Source of the DNA: a virus
Direction: 5' to 3' (one strand)
Virus record (IMG/VR): IMGVR_UViG_3300021364_001255
Coordinates: 1-20,446 of that record
Length of the DNA stretch: 20,446 nucleotides
Shown here: positions 1,122 through 13,448 of the stretch, one piece after another
Layout of the letters: every line of letters starts with the position of its first letter
Numbering within the stretch: position 1 is the first letter of the stretch
The notes under the pieces: model-generated
Told to the model about the DNA's origin: nothing
Databases searched by the model: none
The model's input: the letters and a program-made list of their open reading frames with translations, nothing else
Translations under genes and position numbers: made by a program

Positions 1122-1518
1122 AGTTATTTCCTATTTGGGAGTTTTCTTTTCCAGATTTTAATTCTAAATTATTAAATCCATTTCCTTTAATTATTCCTTT
1201 TTTATGGTGTGCTACACAAAACTCCCAAAAAAACTCTAGCTTTTCGTTAGAAGATAATTTTTTCCATGCTTTGTAACCACCAGGAAATTTATTTGGTGTT
1301 TTATGAGTTTGCCAATTAGCGAAAACTCTATACATCCATCTGTGTAATGATTGGTTTTTTCCAAATACAGTATATCCTGTATCTTTTTTTACGTGACCGC
1401 ATCTTTTCATAGTTATACCATCAATGACCATACCATTGATATGAAAAAAATATGGCTTTCCGTCTATTATTTGTACAGGAGATAAGTCCTCAAGGTTAAC
1501 ATTTTTTACGTTTCTCAT
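1108..1518 (-). CDS. Unidentified protein, possibly HNH-endonuclease related
   Basis: The product has 136 residues and is basic. Residues 59-66 (HRWMYRVF) resemble the first His segment of phage HNH homing endonucleases (x-H-R-x-x-y-x-x-F). Residues 115-130 (FNNLELKSGKENSQIG) resemble the C-terminal NL...eN element of that family. The usual middle H-I-D/N motif is not clear; AHHKKG at 103-108 is the only candidate. It could be a degenerate HNH protein or an unrelated DNA-binding protein. The ATG overlaps the AAA+ ATPase stop (TAATG), and a strong GGAGG site lies inside the end of that gene, so the two are co-transcribed. Confidence 0.55.
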   Translation of the reverse strand: MRNVKNVNLEDLSPVQIIDGKPYFFHINGMVIDGITMKRCGHVKKDTGYTVFGKNQSLHRWMYRVFANWQTHKTPNKFPGGYKAWKKLSSNEKLEFFWEFCVAHHKKGIIKGNGFNNLELKSGKENSQIGNNFENV

Positions 1519-2654
1519 TACACTACCTCCTCTTCAGAAGCTTCTTGAGTAATTGCACCTGTATCTACTTTAGTATAGAGATCCAGGAATGCTTCTTTAG
1601 TATCTAAATCAAATCTTGAGATACACATATCAATTGCTTTCATTCTGTTATTGAAGATAGAGAATGTTTGAACAATATGACATAACCTTCTTGTAGATAT
1701 TACTTCATCGACACCATCATCATAGAATGTTTTTCTGATAACATCTGCCCAAGTAACTAACTTGTCAGCAAAATCTTCATCAGCTTGACCAAATTTTTCC
1801 ATGTGTTTGATTACAATTTTCTTTTCAGTAACCAATGTTGGAAATGGTTGGTCAATAGAAACAGTAAATCTTTCTAAGAATGCTTCATCGATAATTGATG
1901 CTGCAGTAAATCTACCATCTTCGGAACCTTTACCTTTTGTGTTAGCAGTTGCTACTACATTAAATCCAGATGCCGGAGATATTGTTTCACCCGTCTTTTT
2001 AACAACAACAGGTTTACCTTCAAGTATACCTTGAAGACACATAATTTTATTTGTAGCTCTATCGATTTCATCGAGTAGTAACACTGCACCATTCTCCATC
2101 GCTTTAAGAACTGGACCTTTAGAGAAGACAGTTTCACCATCAATGAGTCTGAACCCACCAAGTAAATCATCTTCATCTGTTTCTGGATTGATTTGTACAC
2201 GTATAAACTCCCTATTTAGTTTTGCACATGCTTGTTCTACCATGAAAGTTTTACCATTACCTGATAACCCAGATATGTAAGTCGGATAGAACATTTCTGA
2301 CTTTAAGATTTTGACAACATCATGGAATGAACCCCATGCTACGAATGTGTCGTCTTTTTGAGCAAATGTTTTTTCGTCATTTACTATTGATTGCATTGCC
2401 ATAGCTTTACCTGGCATTATGTTAGTTTGTGCAGGTGTAATTGTTTCTCTAATAGGAACAATGACTGATGATAAATCATATACACCAACTTTGACTCTAT
2501 TGTCTGCAGATAGCAAACAGTAGTAATCTTTTCCAGTGTAGCCATTTGCTTTAGCTATGTCAACGATTTGTGACTTTTTAAATTCATTAGTGTCTGGATA
2601 CTGTGTAGCCAATTCACTAAGTATTTTTTGTGTAGATATTTTCAAGTTATTCAT
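1518..2654 (-). CDS. MoxR/CobS-type AAA+ ATPase
   Basis: The 378-residue product has a clear AAA+ core: Walker A GLSGNGKT (129-136), Walker B VLLLDEID (191-198), a sensor-1 Asn in ATANTKGKG (235-243) and an arginine-finger-like ER (261-262). The first 75 residues look like a small helical, possibly winged-helix, domain. This layout fits the MoxR/CobS branch, whose members work with VWA-domain partners as chaperone-like remodelling or chelatase machines. Marine T4-like phages carry related genes annotated cobS. The gene directly upstream is such a VWA protein, which supports a two-component complex. A dedicated host-type promoter precedes it, with GGAG about 12 bases from the ATG. No other cobalamin gene is visible, so a cobalt-chelatase role is not supported. 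Confidence 0.85.
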   Translation of the reverse strand: MNNLKISTQKILSELATQYPDTNEFKKSQIVDIAKANGYTGKDYYCLLSADNRVKVGVYDLSSVIVPIRETITPAQTNIMPGKAMAMQSIVNDEKTFAQKDDTFVAWGSFHDVVKILKSEMFYPTYISGLSGNGKTFMVEQACAKLNREFIRVQINPETDEDDLLGGFRLIDGETVFSKGPVLKAMENGAVLLLDEIDRATNKIMCLQGILEGKPVVVKKTGETISPASGFNVVATANTKGKGSEDGRFTAASIIDEAFLERFTVSIDQPFPTLVTEKKIVIKHMEKFGQADEDFADKLVTWADVIRKTFYDDGVDEVISTRRLCHIVQTFSIFNNRMKAIDMCISRFDLDTKEAFLDLYTKVDTGAITQEASEEEVV

Positions 2655-2691
2655 AATATAGTTTTTCTCCTTTTCATCAATTTATATATCT

Positions 2692-2723
2692 ATTATACCA
2701 TAGTACGGAGGCAATGTAAATAG
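2692..2723 (-). promoter_or_regulatory. Host-type early promoter of the AAA+ ATPase gene
   Basis: Minus-strand TTTACA (2720-2715), 17-base spacer, TATAAT (2697-2692) with extended TGG. Upstream lies the TTTCAC...AGC block shared with two other copies. The predicted start is near 2685, giving a leader of about 30 bases before the ATG at 2654. Confidence 0.85.
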
Positions 2724-2760
2724 CTGGAGTGAAAAAAGTAGCTATTATTTTCACATTGCC
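2710..2760. repeat. Interrupted inverted repeat across the VWA stop and the AAA+ promoter
   Basis: GGCAATGT (2710-2717) pairs with ACATTGCC (2753-2760), and AATAGCT (2719-2725) pairs with AGCTATT (2740-2746), giving up to 15 pairs with an internal loop. It contains the last codons and stop of the VWA gene and overlaps the -35 of the next promoter. A nested GTGAAAA/TTTTCAC pair (2729-2735 with 2748-2754) offers an alternative fold. It may be a weak terminator, an operator or chance. Confidence 0.4.
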
Positions 2761-4934
2761 ACCGCTTTACCAAAGTTAGTAAGTAAAGTTTTATTAAGTT
2801 TCTTTGACTTACTATGTTTTTTGAAAGCTTGAGTTAGTTTACCCTTACTAGCATCTTCATCTACTAAAAACTCTTCAGCTTCAGTATCGATTTGCTTTGC
2901 TTTCAATAAGTAGTATTGATCATATCCAAAGACATTATCAAATGTACATACTTTTTGTCTTGCAAACATTTTTTGACAATCTTTTTTGAAATCTTGAGTT
3001 TCGTCCCAATCTGCATCTGGATGTTTTAGATATCCGACATCTTCAAGCTTTCTTCTGTATTCATATTGGTCTTGAGCTAAGAAAAACCCTAGTGTAGTTA
3101 CCCCATAGTTCTTTCTTAAATTATCAAGTAAAGCTGTAGTACATCTAGTTCTCATATCTCTAGTTTTAACTTTATTGCCGTCAATGTTAATAATATAACT
3201 ATCTGCATAATATGTATCAGACATCATTCTTTTATCATTTAACTTTTCATCTTTACAAATACTCATGCTATTAGTATCTCCGTCAGACATAACAACAAAG
3301 TTCATATTTTCAATATTGTGTTTTGCTCTAAACTTTTTAATTAATCTAGTACATACCATTAGTGAAGTATTAAGTGGTGTTGAACCCCAGTCTTCTTTAG
3401 GTGAACCATATTCTGAAATTCTAGCTCCACTCCAACCACTTTCCATAATCATTCTAGTATGTAAGAATTGTAGAGCTTCTTCAAAATCTTTCTTTTTAAG
3501 ACCACTATGTATTTGTTGTACTAGTGAAAGACTTTCATGATATATCTCAGCATCTTTTTGTATGCCTCTAGGTAAGTAATTAGTTGTAGTAAATCCATAA
3601 ACATCAAATGGAATATTCACAGCTTTACAAAATAAGATAGTATGTATAAGTTGGTCAATAACTTTATGCATTGTTCCACTCATAGAACCTGAAAAATCAA
3701 TCAGCATAAACATACCATGATTTTTAGCATCAGCTAATTGTGTAACTCTTGAAAAAATATCATCGTTAGTTTTGTATGACCATAACTTATTTACATCAAT
3801 AGAACCTGTCCTTGCAGTTTGAGCTCTTGTATATCTGTAAGCTGCTTTTCTCATTTCAAATTCTTTCACTGCGTAGTTCACATCTTTTTTAACATCTTTA
3901 ATGTATGATGGATATTCTAGTTTAGCTTCGTCCATTTTTTCTTTAGCGTAAGAATAGTAACCCTCATCATTCGTAATTTTTTCAATCATTCTTTGAGTGT
4001 ATAGTTTTCTTTCTTTTGCTATCGTATGATAATCAAATACAACTCTATCTCTAATATCTTTTGAAAATTCATTACATACAACTGTACCATACTCACCAAC
4101 CTTTGGTTTTTCTAGGAGGTCTTCTTCTTTCCTTCTAAAATTTTCGTCAGTGATGGAAACATCTTCATCTCCGCCATGGCTAGTTTCATTTCCAGTATCT
4201 TCGTCTGCCTCTCCTTCGCTTTCTTCTGAAGGACCATCAGACGGAGTCTTTTGTTGATTATTTTCTTGTTCATCGTTATTCTCCATATCATCATGACCCA
4301 TGTTTGATGTTGGGTCTTCATTATTGTCATTATTGTTTTCGTCCTCATCATTACCATCATTAGCTGGTGGTTTCATAAGGTCTTCTTGATTTTCTTTAGT
4401 GTATGCTAAAACATCTCTACATAATTGTACCACTTCTTCAAATGATTCTGTAGTCATGGCTCTATCCATAAATACTTGTTCATCAGAATTAAAAGGTACA
4501 TCAATAAGATTACCAATTTTAGCTTTAAGGTTAATTTTATCAATGAGTTTAGTTTGATCCCAATCAATATCGGATAAGTCACCAAAGAACTCATCATCAA
4601 ATAGTTTTCTATAACCTTTACTGAATGAATTAACTAAACCAGGATATCTAGTTTTTACTTTTCTTTCGATTCTAGCATCTTCAATTACATTAATATATGA
4701 TCTTGGACAACCTTCTAGTTGTTCTGGACTGTCATGCCAACCCTCAAATGGAGTTTCCAAAGCATGTCCCACCTCGTGTCCGATTAATAAATCATATACA
4801 TCTTTACCCATGTCTTTCCAGTTAGGAAGACCTAAAACTCTATCTTTAATGTCAAACCATGCAGTATGATAATTACCGTGTTGAATGGTAATATTCTCTT
4901 TGGCTAGTAATTTGGCTAGGATACCTTTATTCAT
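2751..4934 (-). CDS. VWA-domain protein with metallopeptidase-like N-terminus (CobT-like)
   Basis: The 727-residue product has three parts. The N-terminal part carries an HExxH zinc motif (GHEVGHALE, His53-His57) and, 28 residues later, VIEDARIERK (83-92), whose Glu85 could be the third ligand. Residues about 190-270 form a very acidic Asp/Glu/Asn-rich linker. The C-terminal part is a von Willebrand A domain with a complete MIDAS: DFSGS (413-417), Thr519 and the Asp551 region (VVMSDGD). Acidic linker plus VWA recalls CobT, the partner of CobS; VWA proteins paired with MoxR ATPases are a recurring chaperone-like system. The ATPase is the next gene. A promoter and an AGGAG site eight bases from the ATG precede it. 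Protease activity and the target are unknown. Confidence 0.85.
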   Translation of the reverse strand: MNKGILAKLLAKENITIQHGNYHTAWFDIKDRVLGLPNWKDMGKDVYDLLIGHEVGHALETPFEGWHDSPEQLEGCPRSYINVIEDARIERKVKTRYPGLVNSFSKGYRKLFDDEFFGDLSDIDWDQTKLIDKINLKAKIGNLIDVPFNSDEQVFMDRAMTTESFEEVVQLCRDVLAYTKENQEDLMKPPANDGNDEDENNNDNNEDPTSNMGHDDMENNDEQENNQQKTPSDGPSEESEGEADEDTGNETSHGGDEDVSITDENFRRKEEDLLEKPKVGEYGTVVCNEFSKDIRDRVVFDYHTIAKERKLYTQRMIEKITNDEGYYSYAKEKMDEAKLEYPSYIKDVKKDVNYAVKEFEMRKAAYRYTRAQTARTGSIDVNKLWSYKTNDDIFSRVTQLADAKNHGMFMLIDFSGSMSGTMHKVIDQLIHTILFCKAVNIPFDVYGFTTTNYLPRGIQKDAEIYHESLSLVQQIHSGLKKKDFEEALQFLHTRMIMESGWSGARISEYGSPKEDWGSTPLNTSLMVCTRLIKKFRAKHNIENMNFVVMSDGDTNSMSICKDEKLNDKRMMSDTYYADSYIINIDGNKVKTRDMRTRCTTALLDNLRKNYGVTTLGFFLAQDQYEYRRKLEDVGYLKHPDADWDETQDFKKDCQKMFARQKVCTFDNVFGYDQYYLLKAKQIDTEAEEFLVDEDASKGKLTQAFKKHSKSKKLNKTLLTNFGKAVAM

Positions 4935-4958: not shown

Positions 4959-4990
4959 ATTGTACCATAGTTTGGCACAAATGTAAATAG
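4959..4990 (-). promoter_or_regulatory. Host-type early promoter of the VWA gene
   Basis: Minus-strand TTTACA (4987-4982), 17-base spacer, TACAAT (4964-4959) with extended TGG. This copy has one -10 mismatch relative to the other five. It carries the TTTCACTTTAGC block just upstream of the -35. The predicted start near 4952 keeps the AGGAG at 4946-4942. Confidence 0.8.
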
Positions 4991-5043: not shown

Positions 5044-5544
5044 TTAAGATTTGTTAGAATAAAAACTTTCCAATAATACTTTTTCTACCTTCTTTCTATA
5101 TTTACATCCTATATATTGACTTGTAAAGTATTTCCCATTGTCTGGTATTTCATACGCTATTTTAAGTGGCATATCCATATTATCAGATTCATAATTTTCT
5201 CTTGTAGTTGCTAAAACTGTTTTATCGTTTTCATATATAAAATCCCACCACTCTTTTGCAGAATTCCATTCGGTTCTAAACAGTTCATCAACCCAATCAG
5301 CTCTTTTATTAATGTGTGCTCTTTCTACTGCAACTGGATCTTTTTTACCAGGCACACGTTCAAAATTAACTAAAGCAAATGCTTTTAGTGCATCTTCCGT
5401 TATACCTATAACTCTCCAGCCGTTATCAGTATATGCACCAAATATTGAGCCAAAAGCTCTGACCAAATATTGTTTATTGCAATGTTTAGCTTTAGCCATT
5501 GATTTAAATATATCAAATATTTCGTTTAGCTTTTCTTCATTCAT
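5044..5544 (-). CDS. Unidentified 166-residue phage protein
   Basis: The product is a mixed-charge soluble protein with no signal peptide or membrane segment. Visible features are an N-terminal helix (EEKLNEIFDIFKSMAKAK), a GWRVIGITEDALKAF segment (42-56), a VERAHINKRADW segment (around residues 74-85) and a Trp-rich stretch ending in NDKTVLATTREN. I recognise no enzyme motif. Its ATG overlaps the gene 46 stop (TAATG), so it is likely translated with the recombination nuclease and may act with it, but that rests on context only. The arrays of 11-base repeats lie directly behind its stop. Confidence 0.75.
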   Translation of the reverse strand: MNEEKLNEIFDIFKSMAKAKHCNKQYLVRAFGSIFGAYTDNGWRVIGITEDALKAFALVNFERVPGKKDPVAVERAHINKRADWVDELFRTEWNSAKEWWDFIYENDKTVLATTRENYESDNMDMPLKIAYEIPDNGKYFTSQYIGCKYRKKVEKVLLESFYSNKS

Positions 5545-8481: not shown

Positions 8482-9038
8482 TACATAAATAGTTCTAGTT
8501 TTTCTTTTTTCTTTTCTTCTTTAGCAAATACTTTAATAGCTTCGTCTTTGGTTCTTATTTGACCAATTCTCTGTCTTAAAGTATCTACATAAGCCATAGT
8601 TTCTTGAGCTCCTGCTTCGTCCATACCCATTTGAGTAAAGTCCTCAATACCCATTTTCTCAATAAACTTAAACTTGATATCTTGTTGTCTTTTCTCTTTA
8701 GTAATTCTTCTGATAAAAGCAAAATAACAAATTTGTGTAAAATAAGAGAATGCATTTGGTTTACCTGTTCTTGTAGCTGTTTCGATTTTATAATTACCGA
8801 TAGCTCTTAAACAATTTTCTACTGCATCCATTACCATTTCTTCACGATAAGTATACCTCACGAAGTTCGGTCTGTGAGACAGGCCTTCAGCAATTTTGAT
8901 AAAACATCTTGCGATATAATCAGTTACTTTAGGTACGTCTGTATCATTGGAGCGAGCTTCTTGAACTAATAATGCATAGTCGTATACTGCTTGTGAAAAT
9001 TCTTTATTGTTTACATAATGTGCTTTATTCTTAGCCAT
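8481..9038 (-). CDS. 55: Late-transcription sigma factor gp55
   Basis: At 185 residues this matches the T4 gp55 length. It contains a sigma region-2-like segment: helices VMDAVENCLRAIGNY (around 69-83) and NAFSYFTQICYFAFIRRITKEKRQQ. In T4, gp55 replaces the host sigma factor, recognises TATAAATA and is activated by DNA-loaded gp45. The C-terminus ends in a short hydrophobic tail (KLELFM) after a run of Lys and Glu, as expected of a clamp-binding tail. Both partners, gp45 and TATAAATA sites, are in this window. A strong GGAGGAA site lies seven bases before the ATG, behind its own host-type promoter. Confidence 0.92.
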   Translation of the reverse strand: MAKNKAHYVNNKEFSQAVYDYALLVQEARSNDTDVPKVTDYIARCFIKIAEGLSHRPNFVRYTYREEMVMDAVENCLRAIGNYKIETATRTGKPNAFSYFTQICYFAFIRRITKEKRQQDIKFKFIEKMGIEDFTQMGMDEAGAQETMAYVDTLRQRIGQIRTKDEAIKVFAKEEKKKEKLELFM

Positions 9039-9062
9039 TATAATTCCTCCATAATAGATTAT

Positions 9063-9094
9063 ATTATACCACAGTTTTGCGTAAATGTAAATAG
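9063..9094 (-). promoter_or_regulatory. Host-type early promoter of gene 55
   Basis: Minus-strand TTTACA (9091-9086), 17-base spacer, TATAAT (9068-9063) with extended TGG. The predicted start is near 9056, leaving a leader of about 17 bases with the GGAGGAA site. It is back to back with the plus-strand copy at 9123-9154; the two -35 boxes are 34 bases apart. Confidence 0.85.
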
Positions 9095-9122
9095 TAAATT
9101 CTTTAGTTTATTTTCACTTTAG

Positions 9123-9154
9123 CTATTTACAGATGTGAAAAAGTATGGTATAAT
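9123..9154 (+). promoter_or_regulatory. Plus-strand promoter of the same family, facing the Sm-like gene and uvsW
   Basis: TTTACA (9126-9131), 17-base spacer, TATAAT (9149-9154) with extended TGG, preceded by TTTCACTTTAGC. It is as good a match as the five minus-strand copies, yet no convincing plus-strand gene follows. A transcript starting near 9161 would begin with a purine-rich GGAGGAGGGGAG segment and run antisense to the Sm-like gene and uvsW. Confidence 0.8.
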
Positions 9155-9189
9155 AATATAGATATCCGGAGGAGGGGAGTATATACAAT

Positions 9190-9588
9190 TTAATGTATAG
9201 TCTTAGGAACATCAGGTTCCACGTCCACACCGTCGTCCGAATACTTTTCAATCAACTGTTGTTCATACTCTTCAAGTATTTCCTGTTCAGAACGCTGTTT
9301 CTCAGGAATAGACTGTTGAGCTGATAACGCCAACTTAACATAACTTTCCTTTGCTTTATCTGAAATAGGAACATGCTGAATTACATGACTCTTTAGTATT
9401 TTAAACACTTTAGCTTCTGAGAATGGAAACCATGGAGAAAACTGATATGCCCCTAGTATATTAGATGATACTACTAGTGGTCTTTCCAGAATCCAATTGT
9501 TGTCGTTTTTCACTGATACTAGTGCGACAATCTCATCTCCATTTACGAGTTTAAAATGTCTAATGTTTAAAGATTGAATACCTTCCAT
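9190..9588 (-). CDS. Sm-like (LSm-fold) phage protein
   Basis: The 132-residue product begins with an Sm1-like strand pattern: FKLVNGDEIVALVSV (12-26), a G-[DE]-E-[IV] turn like that of Sm/LSm proteins. A segment ending in a predicted acidic, disordered tail (residues about 95-132) follows. A structure of a putative cyanophage Sm-like protein has been published, and related genes sit near uvsW and gene 55 in marine T4-like phages, so family and position agree. Sm rings bind RNA; the target here is unknown. No Shine-Dalgarno sequence precedes the ATG, and a late promoter ends only eight bases before it, so the late mRNA may have a three-base leader. Confidence 0.7.
   Translation of the reverse strand: MEGIQSLNIRHFKLVNGDEIVALVSVKNDNNWILERPLVVSSNILGAYQFSPWFPFSEAKVFKILKSHVIQHVPISDKAKESYVKLALSAQQSIPEKQRSEQEILEEYEQQLIEKYSDDGVDVEPDVPKTIH
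9193..9324 (+). CDS. Possible small antisense ORF behind the plus-strand promoter
   Basis: The first ATG behind the plus-strand promoter opens a 43-codon frame ending in TGA at 9322-9324. The peptide is basic and hydrophobic, with segments such as RILFNQLLFILFKYFLF. GGAGGAGGGGAG lies upstream, but the nearest part is 13 bases from the ATG, which is long. The frame is wholly antisense to the Sm-like gene, and antisense frames of hydrophilic genes are often hydrophobic by chance. It is listed only because a strong promoter and ribosome-site-like sequence point at it; the transcript may be noncoding. Confidence 0.15.
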   Translation: MYSLRNIRFHVHTVVRILFNQLLFILFKYFLFRTLFLRNRLLS

Positions 9589-9596
9589 ATTATTAT

Positions 9597-9604
9597 TATT
9601 TATA
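9597..9604 (-). promoter_or_regulatory. Late promoter of the Sm-like gene
   Basis: Minus-strand TATAAATA followed by ATAATAAT and the ATG. Counting as in T4 (element at -13 to -6), transcription would start at 9591, three bases before the ATG at 9588. The element overlaps the uvsW stop codon at 9602-9600. Confidence 0.7.
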
Positions 9605-11102
9605 ACTTATAATCAAATAACTTGTAATTAAATTTTTCTTTACTGTATATTTTTATTCTTTCTGCTGCGTGTTGTAATGTATAATTCTTTTTCGATTTCC
9701 AGTGTAAATCATCTGCAATATCGTATACAGTAGTATTTATACCATCACCACTCTTTCTTAATCCTCTTCCGATGCTTTGGAGAACCCTAATTTGAGACTT
9801 ACTTGGTGAAGCAAATATAATGTTGTGTAAACGCTTAATATTAATACCTGTAGAAAAAGTACCCATGGAAGCAACAATAACGGCATCTTTTTGGGTCTCG
9901 GTAATCTCACGGATTTGTTCTCTCGTGTCGACATCTGTTTCTCCTGATACGTAAAATAATTTTCTATTATTATTTATTCTTTTTTGCAATAGAGAGTGTA
10001 ATGGTTTACCATGTTTTTCTACATACTGAAATAGTATTAGTGTATTACCATTCTTACATGTTTCATTAGCTAAATTACATATAAACTCATTTCTTTCTTC
10101 ATACTTAACTATAAAGTCAAGTTCATCTTGGTATTTTAATCCTGATACTATTTTACATATCTCATCACTATATTTTAATAAACATATTTTAATATTTAAT
10201 TGTGATAAGTCGTTATTATCAATAAGTTCTTTAGTTGTAGTTACCTGATACACTGGACCAAATAATCCTTCTAGTACTAACTGATGAGTTTGTGAACCAT
10301 CAAGTGTTCCTGTTGTACCTATTCTATATTGTGCTTCTGTACACTTTTCCATTATAGATGTTAATGATTTAGCTTTAAAATTGTGGGCTTCATCTCCAAG
10401 AACCATACCAAAGTCTAAAAACCAATGACCTGGTAATTTATATATTGATTGCCATGTACTTATTAATACTCTTTGTTTTAATCCAAACTTTTCTTTACCT
10501 GAATATATCCTATGGCAATTTTCTGATACATCCCAACTATCCTTTTCAGAATAATCAGCAAAATCGGAATACATCTGCTCTACTAAAGATGTAGTAGGTA
10601 CAATAATTAATATATTTTGATTATAGTGTTCTAAAAAGTATCTAACTGCTAAATATATGATTAAACTCTTACCAGAAGCTGTTGGTGATAATAATAAAGA
10701 TTTATTATGTGATAAACACTGCGAGAGTGCATCTAATTGGTAATCCCTAGGGGTTATATCACTACCTTTCACAGAAAGGACTATTTGGGATAAAAAGGAA
10801 TTTATGTCATGTGTAACTAATTGATTTACCGTACTATATTTTTCACTCTCTTCCTCATTTAAGGTATAATTTCTTATTGTGCAAAACTCCTGTAAGTATT
10901 TATGTAACCCACAGTATAGAGTTTTCTTTCTCATATCATATAGACGTATTTTACCGTCCCACATACGATTACGATATGCAGGCATAAACTTATAACCAGG
11001 TACAAAGAAACAAAAGTGTTCTGATAATTCTTTTTCTATTGAAGGTTCGCATTGAACATGCATGAAGACTTCATTCTTCTTTTTAATAGTAATGGATTCC
11101 AT
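9600..11102 (-). CDS. uvsW: Recombination DNA/RNA helicase UvsW
   Basis: At 500 residues this matches T4 UvsW (about 502). It has superfamily-2 helicase motifs in order: SPTASGKS (motif I, 139-146), IVPTTSLVEQM (Ia), GDEAH (motif II, 236-240), GTTGTL (motif III, 262-267) and LQSIGRGLRKS (motif VI, 441-451). The N-terminal 110 residues form the UvsW substrate-recognition domain. In T4 it unwinds R-loops and branched DNA, shutting off origin replication and promoting branch migration late in infection. The ATG lies two bases after the uvsY stop, with only a weak GCGGAA site, so it is probably coupled to uvsY. The plus-strand promoter at 9123-9154 points toward it from downstream. Confidence 0.95.
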   Translation of the reverse strand: MESITIKKKNEVFMHVQCEPSIEKELSEHFCFFVPGYKFMPAYRNRMWDGKIRLYDMRKKTLYCGLHKYLQEFCTIRNYTLNEEESEKYSTVNQLVTHDINSFLSQIVLSVKGSDITPRDYQLDALSQCLSHNKSLLLSPTASGKSLIIYLAVRYFLEHYNQNILIIVPTTSLVEQMYSDFADYSEKDSWDVSENCHRIYSGKEKFGLKQRVLISTWQSIYKLPGHWFLDFGMVLGDEAHNFKAKSLTSIMEKCTEAQYRIGTTGTLDGSQTHQLVLEGLFGPVYQVTTTKELIDNNDLSQLNIKICLLKYSDEICKIVSGLKYQDELDFIVKYEERNEFICNLANETCKNGNTLILFQYVEKHGKPLHSLLQKRINNNRKLFYVSGETDVDTREQIREITETQKDAVIVASMGTFSTGINIKRLHNIIFASPSKSQIRVLQSIGRGLRKSGDGINTTVYDIADDLHWKSKKNYTLQHAAERIKIYSKEKFNYKLFDYKL

Positions 11103-11104
11103 GA

Positions 11105-11551
11105 TTAGATTCCGCTAGTGAATTTTCTCCATTCAATCATGTTTTTAATATTCTGATGTCGCCATTTAATGTTTTCCATTATCTCTTTAAGTGTATCACA
11201 AATTTCTTTTAAGTAATCAATCTGCCCTTGTTTTTCTTGTATGACAGGATCTGAATCATAATAATAATTCATATCACCTTTTAATACAGTAAGACCATTT
11301 AAAGGATCATAATCCCATCCTTTTTCATCAATTTCTTCTTGTGTTAACTTGCCGTTATAATGTAGCCATTTGTCTTTAATTAGCACTTTAAATTCAGCTT
11401 CAGCTTTTTTCAGTTTCATTTTATGAACTGAATATATTTCTAAGTATTTGGAATGTAATTTAGCGGATTGTCTAGATGACTCATCAAGATTCATTTCATC
11501 TATCTGAGAATCTTCTTTCCACATTTCTAAGATTTGTTGCAAATTATTCAT
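11105..11551 (-). CDS. uvsY: Recombination mediator UvsY
   Basis: The 148-residue product (T4 UvsY about 137) starts MNNLQQILEMWKEDSQID, which lines up with the T4 start by order of charged and hydrophobic residues, followed by a helical central part and a C-terminal helix. UvsY loads the recombinase UvsX onto single-stranded DNA covered by gp32. Gene order gp23, gp3, uvsY, uvsW is that of marine T4-like phages. No Shine-Dalgarno sequence is present. The -10 of its promoter ends seven bases before the ATG, so the early transcript probably begins at or beside the start codon. The alignment with T4 argues against a start at the next Met (residue 10). Confidence 0.85.
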   Translation of the reverse strand: MNNLQQILEMWKEDSQIDEMNLDESSRQSAKLHSKYLEIYSVHKMKLKKAEAEFKVLIKDKWLHYNGKLTQEEIDEKGWDYDPLNGLTVLKGDMNYYYDSDPVIQEKQGQIDYLKEICDTLKEIMENIKWRHQNIKNMIEWRKFTSGI

Positions 11552-11558
11552 ATTATAT

Positions 11559-11590
11559 ATTATACCATAGTTTAATGATAATGTAAATAG
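11559..11590 (-). promoter_or_regulatory. Host-type early promoter of uvsY, placed for a leaderless mRNA
   Basis: Minus-strand TTTACA (11587-11582), 17-base spacer, TATAAT (11564-11559) with extended TGG. Only seven bases separate the -10 from the ATG at 11551, so initiation 7-8 bases downstream would fall at the A of the ATG. The -35 abuts the gene 3 stop codon. Confidence 0.85.
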
Positions 11591-12061
11591 TTATTTAATT
11601 TCGAAATAAGTATATGCGAATGTGATATCTACTTGTACAAAATCTAAGTCACTGGATTGTGTATTAAACTCTACACCTGTTATTCCTGTAGGAAATAATC
11701 CTTTAAACTCAATTTGTTTATTTACATTATTGTGAGAACTCAAAATCAATAAGGTACCGTCTTCTCTCTGGCTTTCTGAATCGCCATGTTCTAAAATATG
11801 CTTCATCCAATTGAATGTTTCAATATAGTTTTCCATATTTTCAGTAACATTTATACGTAGTGTTAAATCATCAAATTGTAATCTATCACCTGTTGATGCT
11901 AAGTTCACTCCTCTATATGGAGTAGATACAGGTGGTAAAGTTACTGATGGTAATTGAGCGGCTATACAAAAGTATTCAATATTTGCGTATTTGCCACTAT
12001 TGATTTTAAACTGAAACCCTACTGGGCTTAAAAAGTTTTTATTTGTTGTTAATGTACTCAT
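11591..12061 (-). CDS. 3: Head-proximal tail tube tip protein gp3
   Basis: The 156-residue product shares the tube-protein pattern with gp19: an N-terminal FQFKI strand, AAQLPSVTLPPV, then RGVNLASTGDRLQFDDLTLRI, a helix with NWMKHIL and a C-terminal strand ending YTYFEIK. The YTYF ending and FNWM helix fit T4 gp3 (about 176 residues), the ring that caps the tail tube at the head side and sets tail length. Position directly after gene 23 and before uvsY is the usual place of gene 3 in marine T4-like phages. The late promoter ends five bases before the ATG and no ribosome site is visible, so the late mRNA looks leaderless. Confidence 0.82.
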   Translation of the reverse strand: MSTLTTNKNFLSPVGFQFKINSGKYANIEYFCIAAQLPSVTLPPVSTPYRGVNLASTGDRLQFDDLTLRINVTENMENYIETFNWMKHILEHGDSESQREDGTLLILSSHNNVNKQIEFKGLFPTGITGVEFNTQSSDLDFVQVDITFAYTYFEIK

Positions 12062-12066
12062 ACTAT

Positions 12067-12074
12067 TATTTATA
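12067..12074 (-). promoter_or_regulatory. Late promoter of gene 3, placed for a leaderless mRNA
   Basis: Minus-strand TATAAATAATAG runs directly into the ATG at 12061. By T4 spacing (element at -13 to -6) the transcription start is the A of the start codon. It lies just after the gene 23 terminator. Confidence 0.75.
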
Positions 12075-12077
12075 CAT

Positions 12078-12106
12078 AAAAAAAGAGGGTTCCGAAGAAC
12101 CCCCTT
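12078..12106 (-). terminator. Intrinsic terminator of the capsid operon
   Basis: On the minus strand GGGTTC, loop TTCG, GAACCC (12102-12087) forms a six-pair stem with the very stable UUCG loop, extendable past one mismatch by three more pairs. It is followed by TCTTTTTTT. It ends transcription about 25 bases after gene 23. There is no T tract on the plus side, so it acts only on minus-strand transcripts. Confidence 0.9.
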
Positions 12107-12128
12107 AAAAAATAGTTAAAAACTATCC

Positions 12129-13448
12129 TTACTCCATGATTCCATTTACTTTGAAAATTCTGAAGTATACGTTCTGTCTATCTGTACCTAGGCCTGAACC
12201 TGCTACAAATGGGTTAGCTACCATACCGTATCTTGTTTTAAATCCAATTCTTGGTTGGAAATCTTGCTCACCGACTGCTTTAACCATTGTTAAAGGTACG
12301 TATGGGCAATAGAAAACACCAGCATCGTATGGGTTAGCACCTCTGTAACCAACACATACAAAGTCTTCAGTTGCGTATGGATCGATGTATACTTTTACTC
12401 TTCCGTTAAGAACACCAGCAAATGTATTACCTGTGTCATCAACATTTAAGTTAGCACTTAAAGCAGGAGTATAGTCTAATAAACCAGCTGCAGCAAGAGC
12501 AGATGCTACGTCTGAAGAACATAGGATAAAGTTACCTTTACCTCTTCTTGTTTCTTTAGCAATAACGTTTGCTTCTCTCTCGATTTGCATGATAAGACCT
12601 TTGAACTTCTCTACCATCCATCTGCCGTCTGAATCAGTCTCAACATCAAAAGCACCTTTCAGTACTACGTTTGATTGTAGAGCACCTAATTTAGCCTTAA
12701 CAAGAATTGTTCTCACAACCTCTCTGTTAATTTCAGCTAAAATTTCAGATGAAAGAATGTTAGCAAGTTCGCCTTCAGCATCCAATCCATGGATTGCTTT
12801 AAGATCTTGTGCTAATTCCATTGTATACTCAGCTTTTAAAGCTCTTGACTGAGCAGTTACTGTTGTTTTCTCGATTGAGAAAGCCATTTCAGCAAAAGCA
12901 GGTGAGCCTGAAGTACCTAGAGCTTCAGCATCAGCTGTAGTCTTACCAGCACCGAAAGTGTGAGTAGTATCGTCATCAGCTAAAGTTGTAGCATCACCGG
13001 TAGAACCGTCTACGCCTTCAAGACCAGTTGGACCAGCTTCTTGAGTTGTACCGTCACCTGAGAAAGCTGTATCAGCTTCATTAAATAGTGCTTCAGTACC
13101 TGACTGGTTAGTATAGTGTGATTTCATTGCAAAGATAAGTCCTGTAGGACCACTCATTGGCTGAACGCCAGCGATATCATAAGCAATTAAGTTAGGCATT
13201 GCTCTTCTAACTAAAGAAATTAAAACTGGGTCAAAGTTATCAATACCTGAACCTGTTTTGTTAACAGCAGCTGCCTCAGAAATATAATTTCCTTGAGCTT
13301 GCATTCTTTCTTCTCTTAGAGCAACTTCCTGGTTTTCTAACAATCTAGCTGTAACAGCTTTCTTGTATGATGAGGATATTTCAGGTGCACTGTCGTGCTC
13401 TAAAACTGGACCCCATTTTTCCATAAGTTTTGCGTCTGCATTAAACAT
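12129..13448 (-). CDS. 23: Major capsid protein gp23
   Basis: The 439-residue product (T4 gp23 about 521) shows the conserved PNLIAYDIAGVQPMSGPTGLIFAM segment, the GLDAEGELANILSSEILAEINREV helix and the C-terminal RIGFKTRYGMVANPF, all characteristic of T4-type capsid proteins with the HK97 fold. The N-terminal about 58 residues form the scaffold-binding propeptide. ISE followed by AAA (56-58) fits the I/L-x-E cleavage rule of prohead protease gp21, so the mature protein would begin at Ala59. A separate vertex gene 24 is not in the window. AAGGGG eight bases before the ATG serves as ribosome site, and a terminator follows the gene. Confidence 0.97.
   Translation of the reverse strand: MFNADAKLMEKWGPVLEHDSAPEISSSYKKAVTARLLENQEVALREERMQAQGNYISEAAAVNKTGSGIDNFDPVLISLVRRAMPNLIAYDIAGVQPMSGPTGLIFAMKSHYTNQSGTEALFNEADTAFSGDGTTQEAGPTGLEGVDGSTGDATTLADDDTTHTFGAGKTTADAEALGTSGSPAFAEMAFSIEKTTVTAQSRALKAEYTMELAQDLKAIHGLDAEGELANILSSEILAEINREVVRTILVKAKLGALQSNVVLKGAFDVETDSDGRWMVEKFKGLIMQIEREANVIAKETRRGKGNFILCSSDVASALAAAGLLDYTPALSANLNVDDTGNTFAGVLNGRVKVYIDPYATEDFVCVGYRGANPYDAGVFYCPYVPLTMVKAVGEQDFQPRIGFKTRYGMVANPFVAGSGLGTDRQNVYFRIFKVNGIME

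Follow-up and report, generated by a model that had tools for sequence, protein, structure and literature searches.

A MoxR-class ATPase and a VWA partner with a metallopeptidase-like head, encoded between genes 46 and 45 of a T4-like phage

Introduction

What do the two adjoining genes that T4-like phages carry under the names “peptidase” and “CobS” do? Most T4-like viruses of ocean bacteria share the pair, usually under a vitamin-B12 label: the literature counts cobS among the auxiliary metabolic genes for vitamin B12, and the product of its partner goes by the name of peptidase or is taken for a mis-annotated CobT. The question is raised anew by IMG/VR virus record IMGVR_UViG_3300021364_001255, of which positions 1 to 20,446 (20,446 nucleotides; “the window”) were analysed. 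The minus strand of the window encodes a metallopeptidase-VWA protein of 727 amino acids (aa) (2751..4934; PHROG 459, “peptidase”; CobT-like) and a MoxR-class AAA+ ATPase of 378 aa (1518..2654; PHROG 249, the cyanophage “CobS”). An initial annotation, made from the sequence alone, had proposed that the two proteins form an early two-component remodelling machine. The gene pair itself is not new, being a core pair of T4-like cyanophages and pelagiphages that is annotated as “peptidase” and “CobS”. What is new is that the conflict between the peptidase and CobT labels is resolved, both names having a basis. The sequence evidence is in favour of a conserved remodelling machine that bears a peptidase and counts against the B12 reading of cobS, which belongs to the core gene set of marine T4-like phages; public annotation of the function of the pair is wrong or left open.

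A conserved metallopeptidase-like head on a VWA protein

The VWA protein matches the phrog_459 profile over its full length (E 6.5e-181, residues 3-726 of 727), and homologues are present in 463 phage records. The initial annotation had pointed to an N-terminal HEVGH, a downstream EDARIER, an acidic linker and an intact metal-ion-dependent adhesion site (MIDAS); all of these, like the open reading frames (ORFs) themselves, were recovered at the positions given below, on the minus strand throughout. HEVGH (H53-E54-V55-G56-H57; 4764..4778) is a putative zinc site with a catalytic Glu. In a set of homologues that was not selected by the HExxH motif, its residues H53, E54 and H57 never vary (60/60). 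They are equally invariant in a larger set, comprising 139 of 139 phage homologues with a readable N-terminus, although this count is biased because part of the set was found with motif patterns. EDARIER spans residues 85-91, and its first six residues (E85-D86-A87-R88-I89-E90; 4665..4682) contain a putative third metal ligand, E85 or D86. In the larger set, D86, R88 and I89 are kept in all 139 homologues and E85 in 138. The lowest identities of homologues to the window protein are 27-32%. These patterns of conservation indicate that HExxH in the phage VWA family is no chance motif. In two loci (L033 and L066), the VWA frame has no ATG in about its first 100 codons, and a non-ATG start is probable.

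The VWA domain (approximately residues 401-640; 3015..3734) has a complete MIDAS, in which the DxSxS motif (D413-x-S415-x-S417; 3684..3698) is completed by T519 (3378-3380) and D551 (3282-3284); these residues are invariant in 141/141 homologues.

Structures were predicted from the fetched loci only. The AlphaFold2 model of the N-terminal domain (residues 1-188; 4371..4934) has a predicted local distance difference test (pLDDT) score of 89.6 and a predicted template modelling score of 0.86, and consists of three strands, then the HExxH helix (residues 43-60), then the helix with the ED motif (residues 78-96). When this model was compared with the Protein Data Bank (PDB) using Foldseek, minigluzincins led the matches (4jiu, 4qhi, 4jix; abylysin, selecase, jannalysin), with probabilities mostly of 0.94-1.00 and E of about 0.1, followed by ArdC and M1 aminopeptidases with E near 0.1 and above. 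The N-domain is also seen in predicted structures of “CobT” and “VWFA” proteins from many tailed viruses, haloarchaeal ones included. In keeping with the metallopeptidase-like motif noted in the initial annotation, the N-domain is predicted to fold like a zincin. In the model of the full protein (pLDDT 83.5), the acidic linker (residues 194-255; 4170..4355) is predicted to be disordered (pLDDT < 50), and the top PDB matches, which define the VWA domain, are the NorD VWA chains of NorQD (9qhe, 9qh6, 9qh8; E 1.4e-5 to 3.6e-5).

Sequence searches with the VWA protein were less informative: those of Pfam and NCBIfam returned nothing usable, and those of the PDB, with the protein or its profile, gave no meaningful match. 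DUF2201_N (PF13203), searched as a cellular relative, had few matches in the phyla sampled. A scan of genome contigs found six loci in draft assemblies, mostly metagenome bins, and these are probably phage contigs.

Rates of evolution within the VWA protein, measured against close relatives (L004-L013), differ sharply between its parts. The peptidase head evolves most slowly, being 94-97% identical among these relatives (nonsynonymous rate, dN, 0.01-0.04), a conservation about level with that of genes 46 and 45 and the ATPase gene. The linker, pre-VWA and C-terminal parts, which are fast-evolving, are approximately 46-77% identical (dN mostly 0.15-0.45), with a synonymous rate (dS) similar to that of the head. 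Since dN/dS is below 1, there is no evidence of positive selection. The contrast in rates fits a conserved activity carried on a changeable adaptor.

The ATPase and its genetic linkage to the VWA protein

The ATPase matches the Pfam families AAA_5 (5.2e-21) and CbbQ_C (9.6e-6, passing the CbbQ_C cut-off), and its sequence matches the solved structures of CobS, NorQ and CbbQ. It also matches phrog_249, which is labelled “porphyrin biosynthesis”/CobS, over residues 52-376 of 378 (2.3e-111). Walker A (G129-T136; 2247..2270), Walker B (ending in D195-E196; 2067..2081), and the sensor and arginine positions are at least 97% conserved among 124 sequences. The window pair has both parts of a MoxR/VWA machine, namely a MoxR-class ATPase with intact Walker motifs and a partner whose VWA domain has an intact MIDAS.

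The two genes are tightly linked. In 85 of the 85 fetched loci that extend at least 3.5 kb beyond the VWA gene, an ATPase gene follows it downstream on that strand, in most cases no more than 200 bases away. Where enough flanking sequence was present, gene 46 lies upstream in 97/104 loci and gene 45 downstream in 50/55. The order 46-VWA-AAA-45 is shared by syn9, P-SSM2, S-PM2, P-HM1, HTVC008M and Mosig; in Stenotrophomonas phage DLP6, the pair is intact but relocated, after uvsX and a primase/helicase gene. By portal protein, the closest named phages to the window are C48C1 and Methylophilales phage Melnitz, and genome-wide searches found neither gene of the pair in either phage. In C48C1, genes 46 and 45 are adjacent, in agreement with the initial proposal that the pair was placed between otherwise neighbouring genes. 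Records of the VWA gene and the ATPase gene are equal in number for Synechococcus (365), Cyanophage (61) and Prochlorococcus (24). The two genes are gained and lost together, and the linkage and joint loss make the proposed two-component AAA+/VWA machine plausible.

CobT-like/CobS-like pairs also occur outside this setting. In two Rhizobium phages and one Klebsiella phage (L225, L228, L230), such a pair lies just upstream of the DNA polymerase III alpha gene (dnaE), from which it is separated in the Rhizobium phages by a sigma-70 gene. PADLOC models of anti-phage defence MoxR-vWA systems gave no match.

Promoters and gene neighbourhood

A promoter of the form TTTACATT-N8-ACTATGGTAYAAT occurs in six copies in the window, against 0.01 expected by chance. 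As the initial annotation had noted, the VWA gene and the ATPase gene have one copy each (4959..4987 and 2692..2720, respectively, both on the minus strand). Close relatives have early-type promoters as well: 47/53 have one ahead of the VWA gene and 50/57 one ahead of the ATPase gene, compared with approximately 9% in shuffles. The sigma-70 form of these promoters suggests that they act early. A late-type TATAAATA located 23 nt before the VWA start was taken as chance; only 7/53 close relatives have such a site before the VWA gene. The other copies of this strong early-type promoter lie at 793-821, 9063-9091 and 11559-11587 on the minus strand and at 9126-9154 on the plus strand; no listed ORF of at least 60 aa begins just downstream of the plus-strand copy.

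The minus strand of the window carries a T4-like replication/recombination and head module, in the order sigma-55-like gene, 47, 46, a 166-aa ORF, the VWA gene, the ATPase gene, two small ORFs and 45. The interval from 46 to 45 accordingly holds three small ORFs (166, 136 and 98 aa) besides the pair. The 166-aa ORF (5044-5544) has a weak match to ThuA and adjoins the pair in few relatives only (e.g. L011). Megablast against phage records gave no match.

Relationship to cobalamin CobT

The initial annotation had described HExxH as unusual for CobT-like partners. This holds with respect to cobalamin CobT, HExxH being absent from 43/43 proteins of the alphaproteobacterial type, but not with respect to phage CobT-like proteins: the motif is present in the VWA partners of 6/6 unrelated phages examined, and in the CobT-like protein of a bacterial element resembling an integrative and conjugative element (L221). 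In that element (8903-12283), a DUF3150 gene adjoins the gene for the HExxH-bearing protein. At the place of HExxH, most of the 43 cobalamin CobT proteins have an H(D/N)xxxH-like remnant; this and the ARxEA that follows align with the phage HExxH and EDARIE.

Homology of the window protein to CobT is distant. Of the phage relatives, two (L226 and L228) score above the Pfam cut-offs for CobT and CobT_C and bear HExxH; L228 and L230 match PHROG 459 in the HExxH region, and the window protein is therefore a distant CobT relative. The case rests on this chain of relatives (L226/L228/L230) and not on hhalign, which aligned the VWA protein to CobT weakly (probability 7.5 for the N-domain and 77 for the VWA domain), with HALETP..EDARIER placed over HxRYxP..ARCEA of CobT in the N-domain. 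Neither window protein comes near the curated models: the ATPase scores 57.2 bits against a CobS cut-off of 558.55 (TIGR01650), and the VWA protein 6.8 bits against a CobT cut-off of 759.05 (TIGR01651). The absence of a cobalamin operon, also part of the initial annotation, is upheld to the extent that no B12 gene is found among the window proteins scanned and CobN is not found in 7/7 complete relatives. Given that HExxH is missing from 43/43 cobalamin CobT proteins, that the CobS and CobT cut-offs are missed and that CobN is absent, it appears that an intact peptidase site, absent from the vitamin-B12 branch, was either retained or acquired by the phage family. HExxH may thus serve as a simple marker, present in the phage proteins and absent from cobalamin CobT, and a role of the pair as a cobalamin chelatase is unlikely.

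Proposed mechanism and alternative explanations

The explanation preferred here, to which we give an even chance of being correct, is an AAA+/VWA remodelling machine, inherited as a unit and of the same type as NorQD, CobST and CbbQO, with a minigluzincin-like metallopeptidase head that cuts a target of the early or middle phase. Motif conservation and the predicted fold suggest that the head is probably active. The MoxR ATPase, the phage “CobS”, would form an ATP-hydrolysing hexamer, and the VWA domain of the partner would dock on or in this ring, with the MIDAS or the linker gripping the target protein. By analogy with NorQD (PMC13036017), the ring might rotate or stretch the target-bound VWA partner. 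Pulled or twisted by the ring together with the adaptor, the target would be opened, and the head, having bound zinc, would make a limited cut in it. The machine would be at work in the early or middle phase, and its target would be a protein of either host or phage from the stage of replication or takeover.

In zincins, the HExxH glutamate acts as the catalytic base rather than as a metal ligand; a zinc site of purely structural function could do without it. Cleavage is therefore favoured over mere metal binding, because E54 is strictly conserved. This bears on a possible but rather doubtful alternative, in which the pair is a non-proteolytic chaperone, like NorQD or CbbQO, that opens a target for activation or metal insertion while the head does no more than bind metal, a peptide or the ATPase. 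Such a role would agree with NorD being the best whole-protein fold match and with the fact that MoxR/VWA pairs of known role are mostly chaperones or activators (PMC7159879), but it leaves unexplained why E54, and indeed the HExxH/ED site as a whole, is invariant and why the head is the slowest-evolving part of the protein. The pair could instead serve virion assembly or maturation, as a chaperone and peptidase that process structural proteins. In PMC7824862, the same architecture is given a virion role in jumbo phages, and an archaeal virus MoxR/VWA pair is cited as being tied to tail development. In the window, however, the promoters are of early and not late type and are conserved as such in relatives, the pair sits among replication genes and not structural genes, and it is missing from relatives that share the T4-like virion genes, all of which makes a virion role improbable. 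A replication- or takeover-stage target is favoured over virion maturation because of the early-type promoters and the location in the replication module or next to dnaE. Least probable of all is a viral cobaltochelatase, in which phage CobST would use host CobN and raise the cobalamin supply (PMC8651126). The distant homology is real, as L226 and L228 illustrate, and the ATPase matches both the CobS model and CobS structures; the scores far under the curated cut-offs, the lack of CobN and B12 genes, and the presence of HExxH in phages but in none of the 43 cobalamin CobT proteins all stand against it.

Several observations weigh against a cutting machine. The Foldseek similarity of the N-domain to zincins in the PDB is weak (best E 0.087; template modelling scores of the leading matches 0.24-0.36 by query length). 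The partner protein of Vibrio phage Saratov-12 (L227, 313-2055) has HExxH, but the E of its ED motif seems to be replaced by V. The identity of the third ligand is uncertain because of this protein; it may be the D of the ED motif. The fast evolution of the adaptor may reflect relaxed constraint, dN/dS being below 1. To our knowledge, published work ascribes no peptidase role to the partners in NorQD or CbbQO.

A bolder extension of the preferred explanation, put forward tentatively, is that phage “CobST” is a distinct two-component class of ATP-dependent protease, in which the VWA adaptor of the MoxR ring, and neither the ATPase nor a separate barrel, bears the peptidase. It might be used by a large fraction of the T4-like phages of the ocean, as well as unrelated phages and mobile elements, to cut a protein of the replication or defence stage. 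Cobalamin CobT, as a descendant or a sister of the phage form, would then have lost the peptidase site. If the pair does turn out to be a protease driven by ATP, viruses that rank among the most abundant in the ocean possess a protein-cutting machine that has yet to be described.

Comparison with known systems

The nearest counterparts of the pair are PHROG 459 (T4-GC146) and PHROG 249 (T4-GC150) of named cyanophages and pelagiphages, which are full-length homologues in the same gene order as in the window. The window VWA protein is approximately 27-32% identical to theirs, and their annotation mentions neither VWA nor the logic of an AAA/VWA pair. Cobaltochelatase CobS/CobT is a distant homologue with the same domain order, from which the phage pair differs in falling far under the curated cut-offs, in having the HExxH that CobT is without (43/43) and in belonging to phages without CobN. 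The minigluzincins abylysin, jannalysin and selecase resemble the model of the phage N-domain in their fold around the HExxH helix, with weak E-values; unlike the phage head, they are small stand-alone proteins.

NorQD, like the phage pair, combines a MoxR ATPase with a partner that has an N-domain, a flexible linker and a C-terminal VWA domain. The N-domain of NorD binds the ATPase and its linker is stretched (PMC13036017). The target of NorQD is a respiratory enzyme, and neither HExxH nor zinc is mentioned in PMC13036017. In group 2.2 jumbo phages, according to Iyer et al. 2021 (PMC7824862), a MoxR ATPase accompanies a vWA domain fused to an N-terminal metallopeptidase (the pair ASV44728/ASV44729), and a function in virion assembly was proposed. 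By that description, to which the likeness is confined, both the architecture and the pairing are as in the window.

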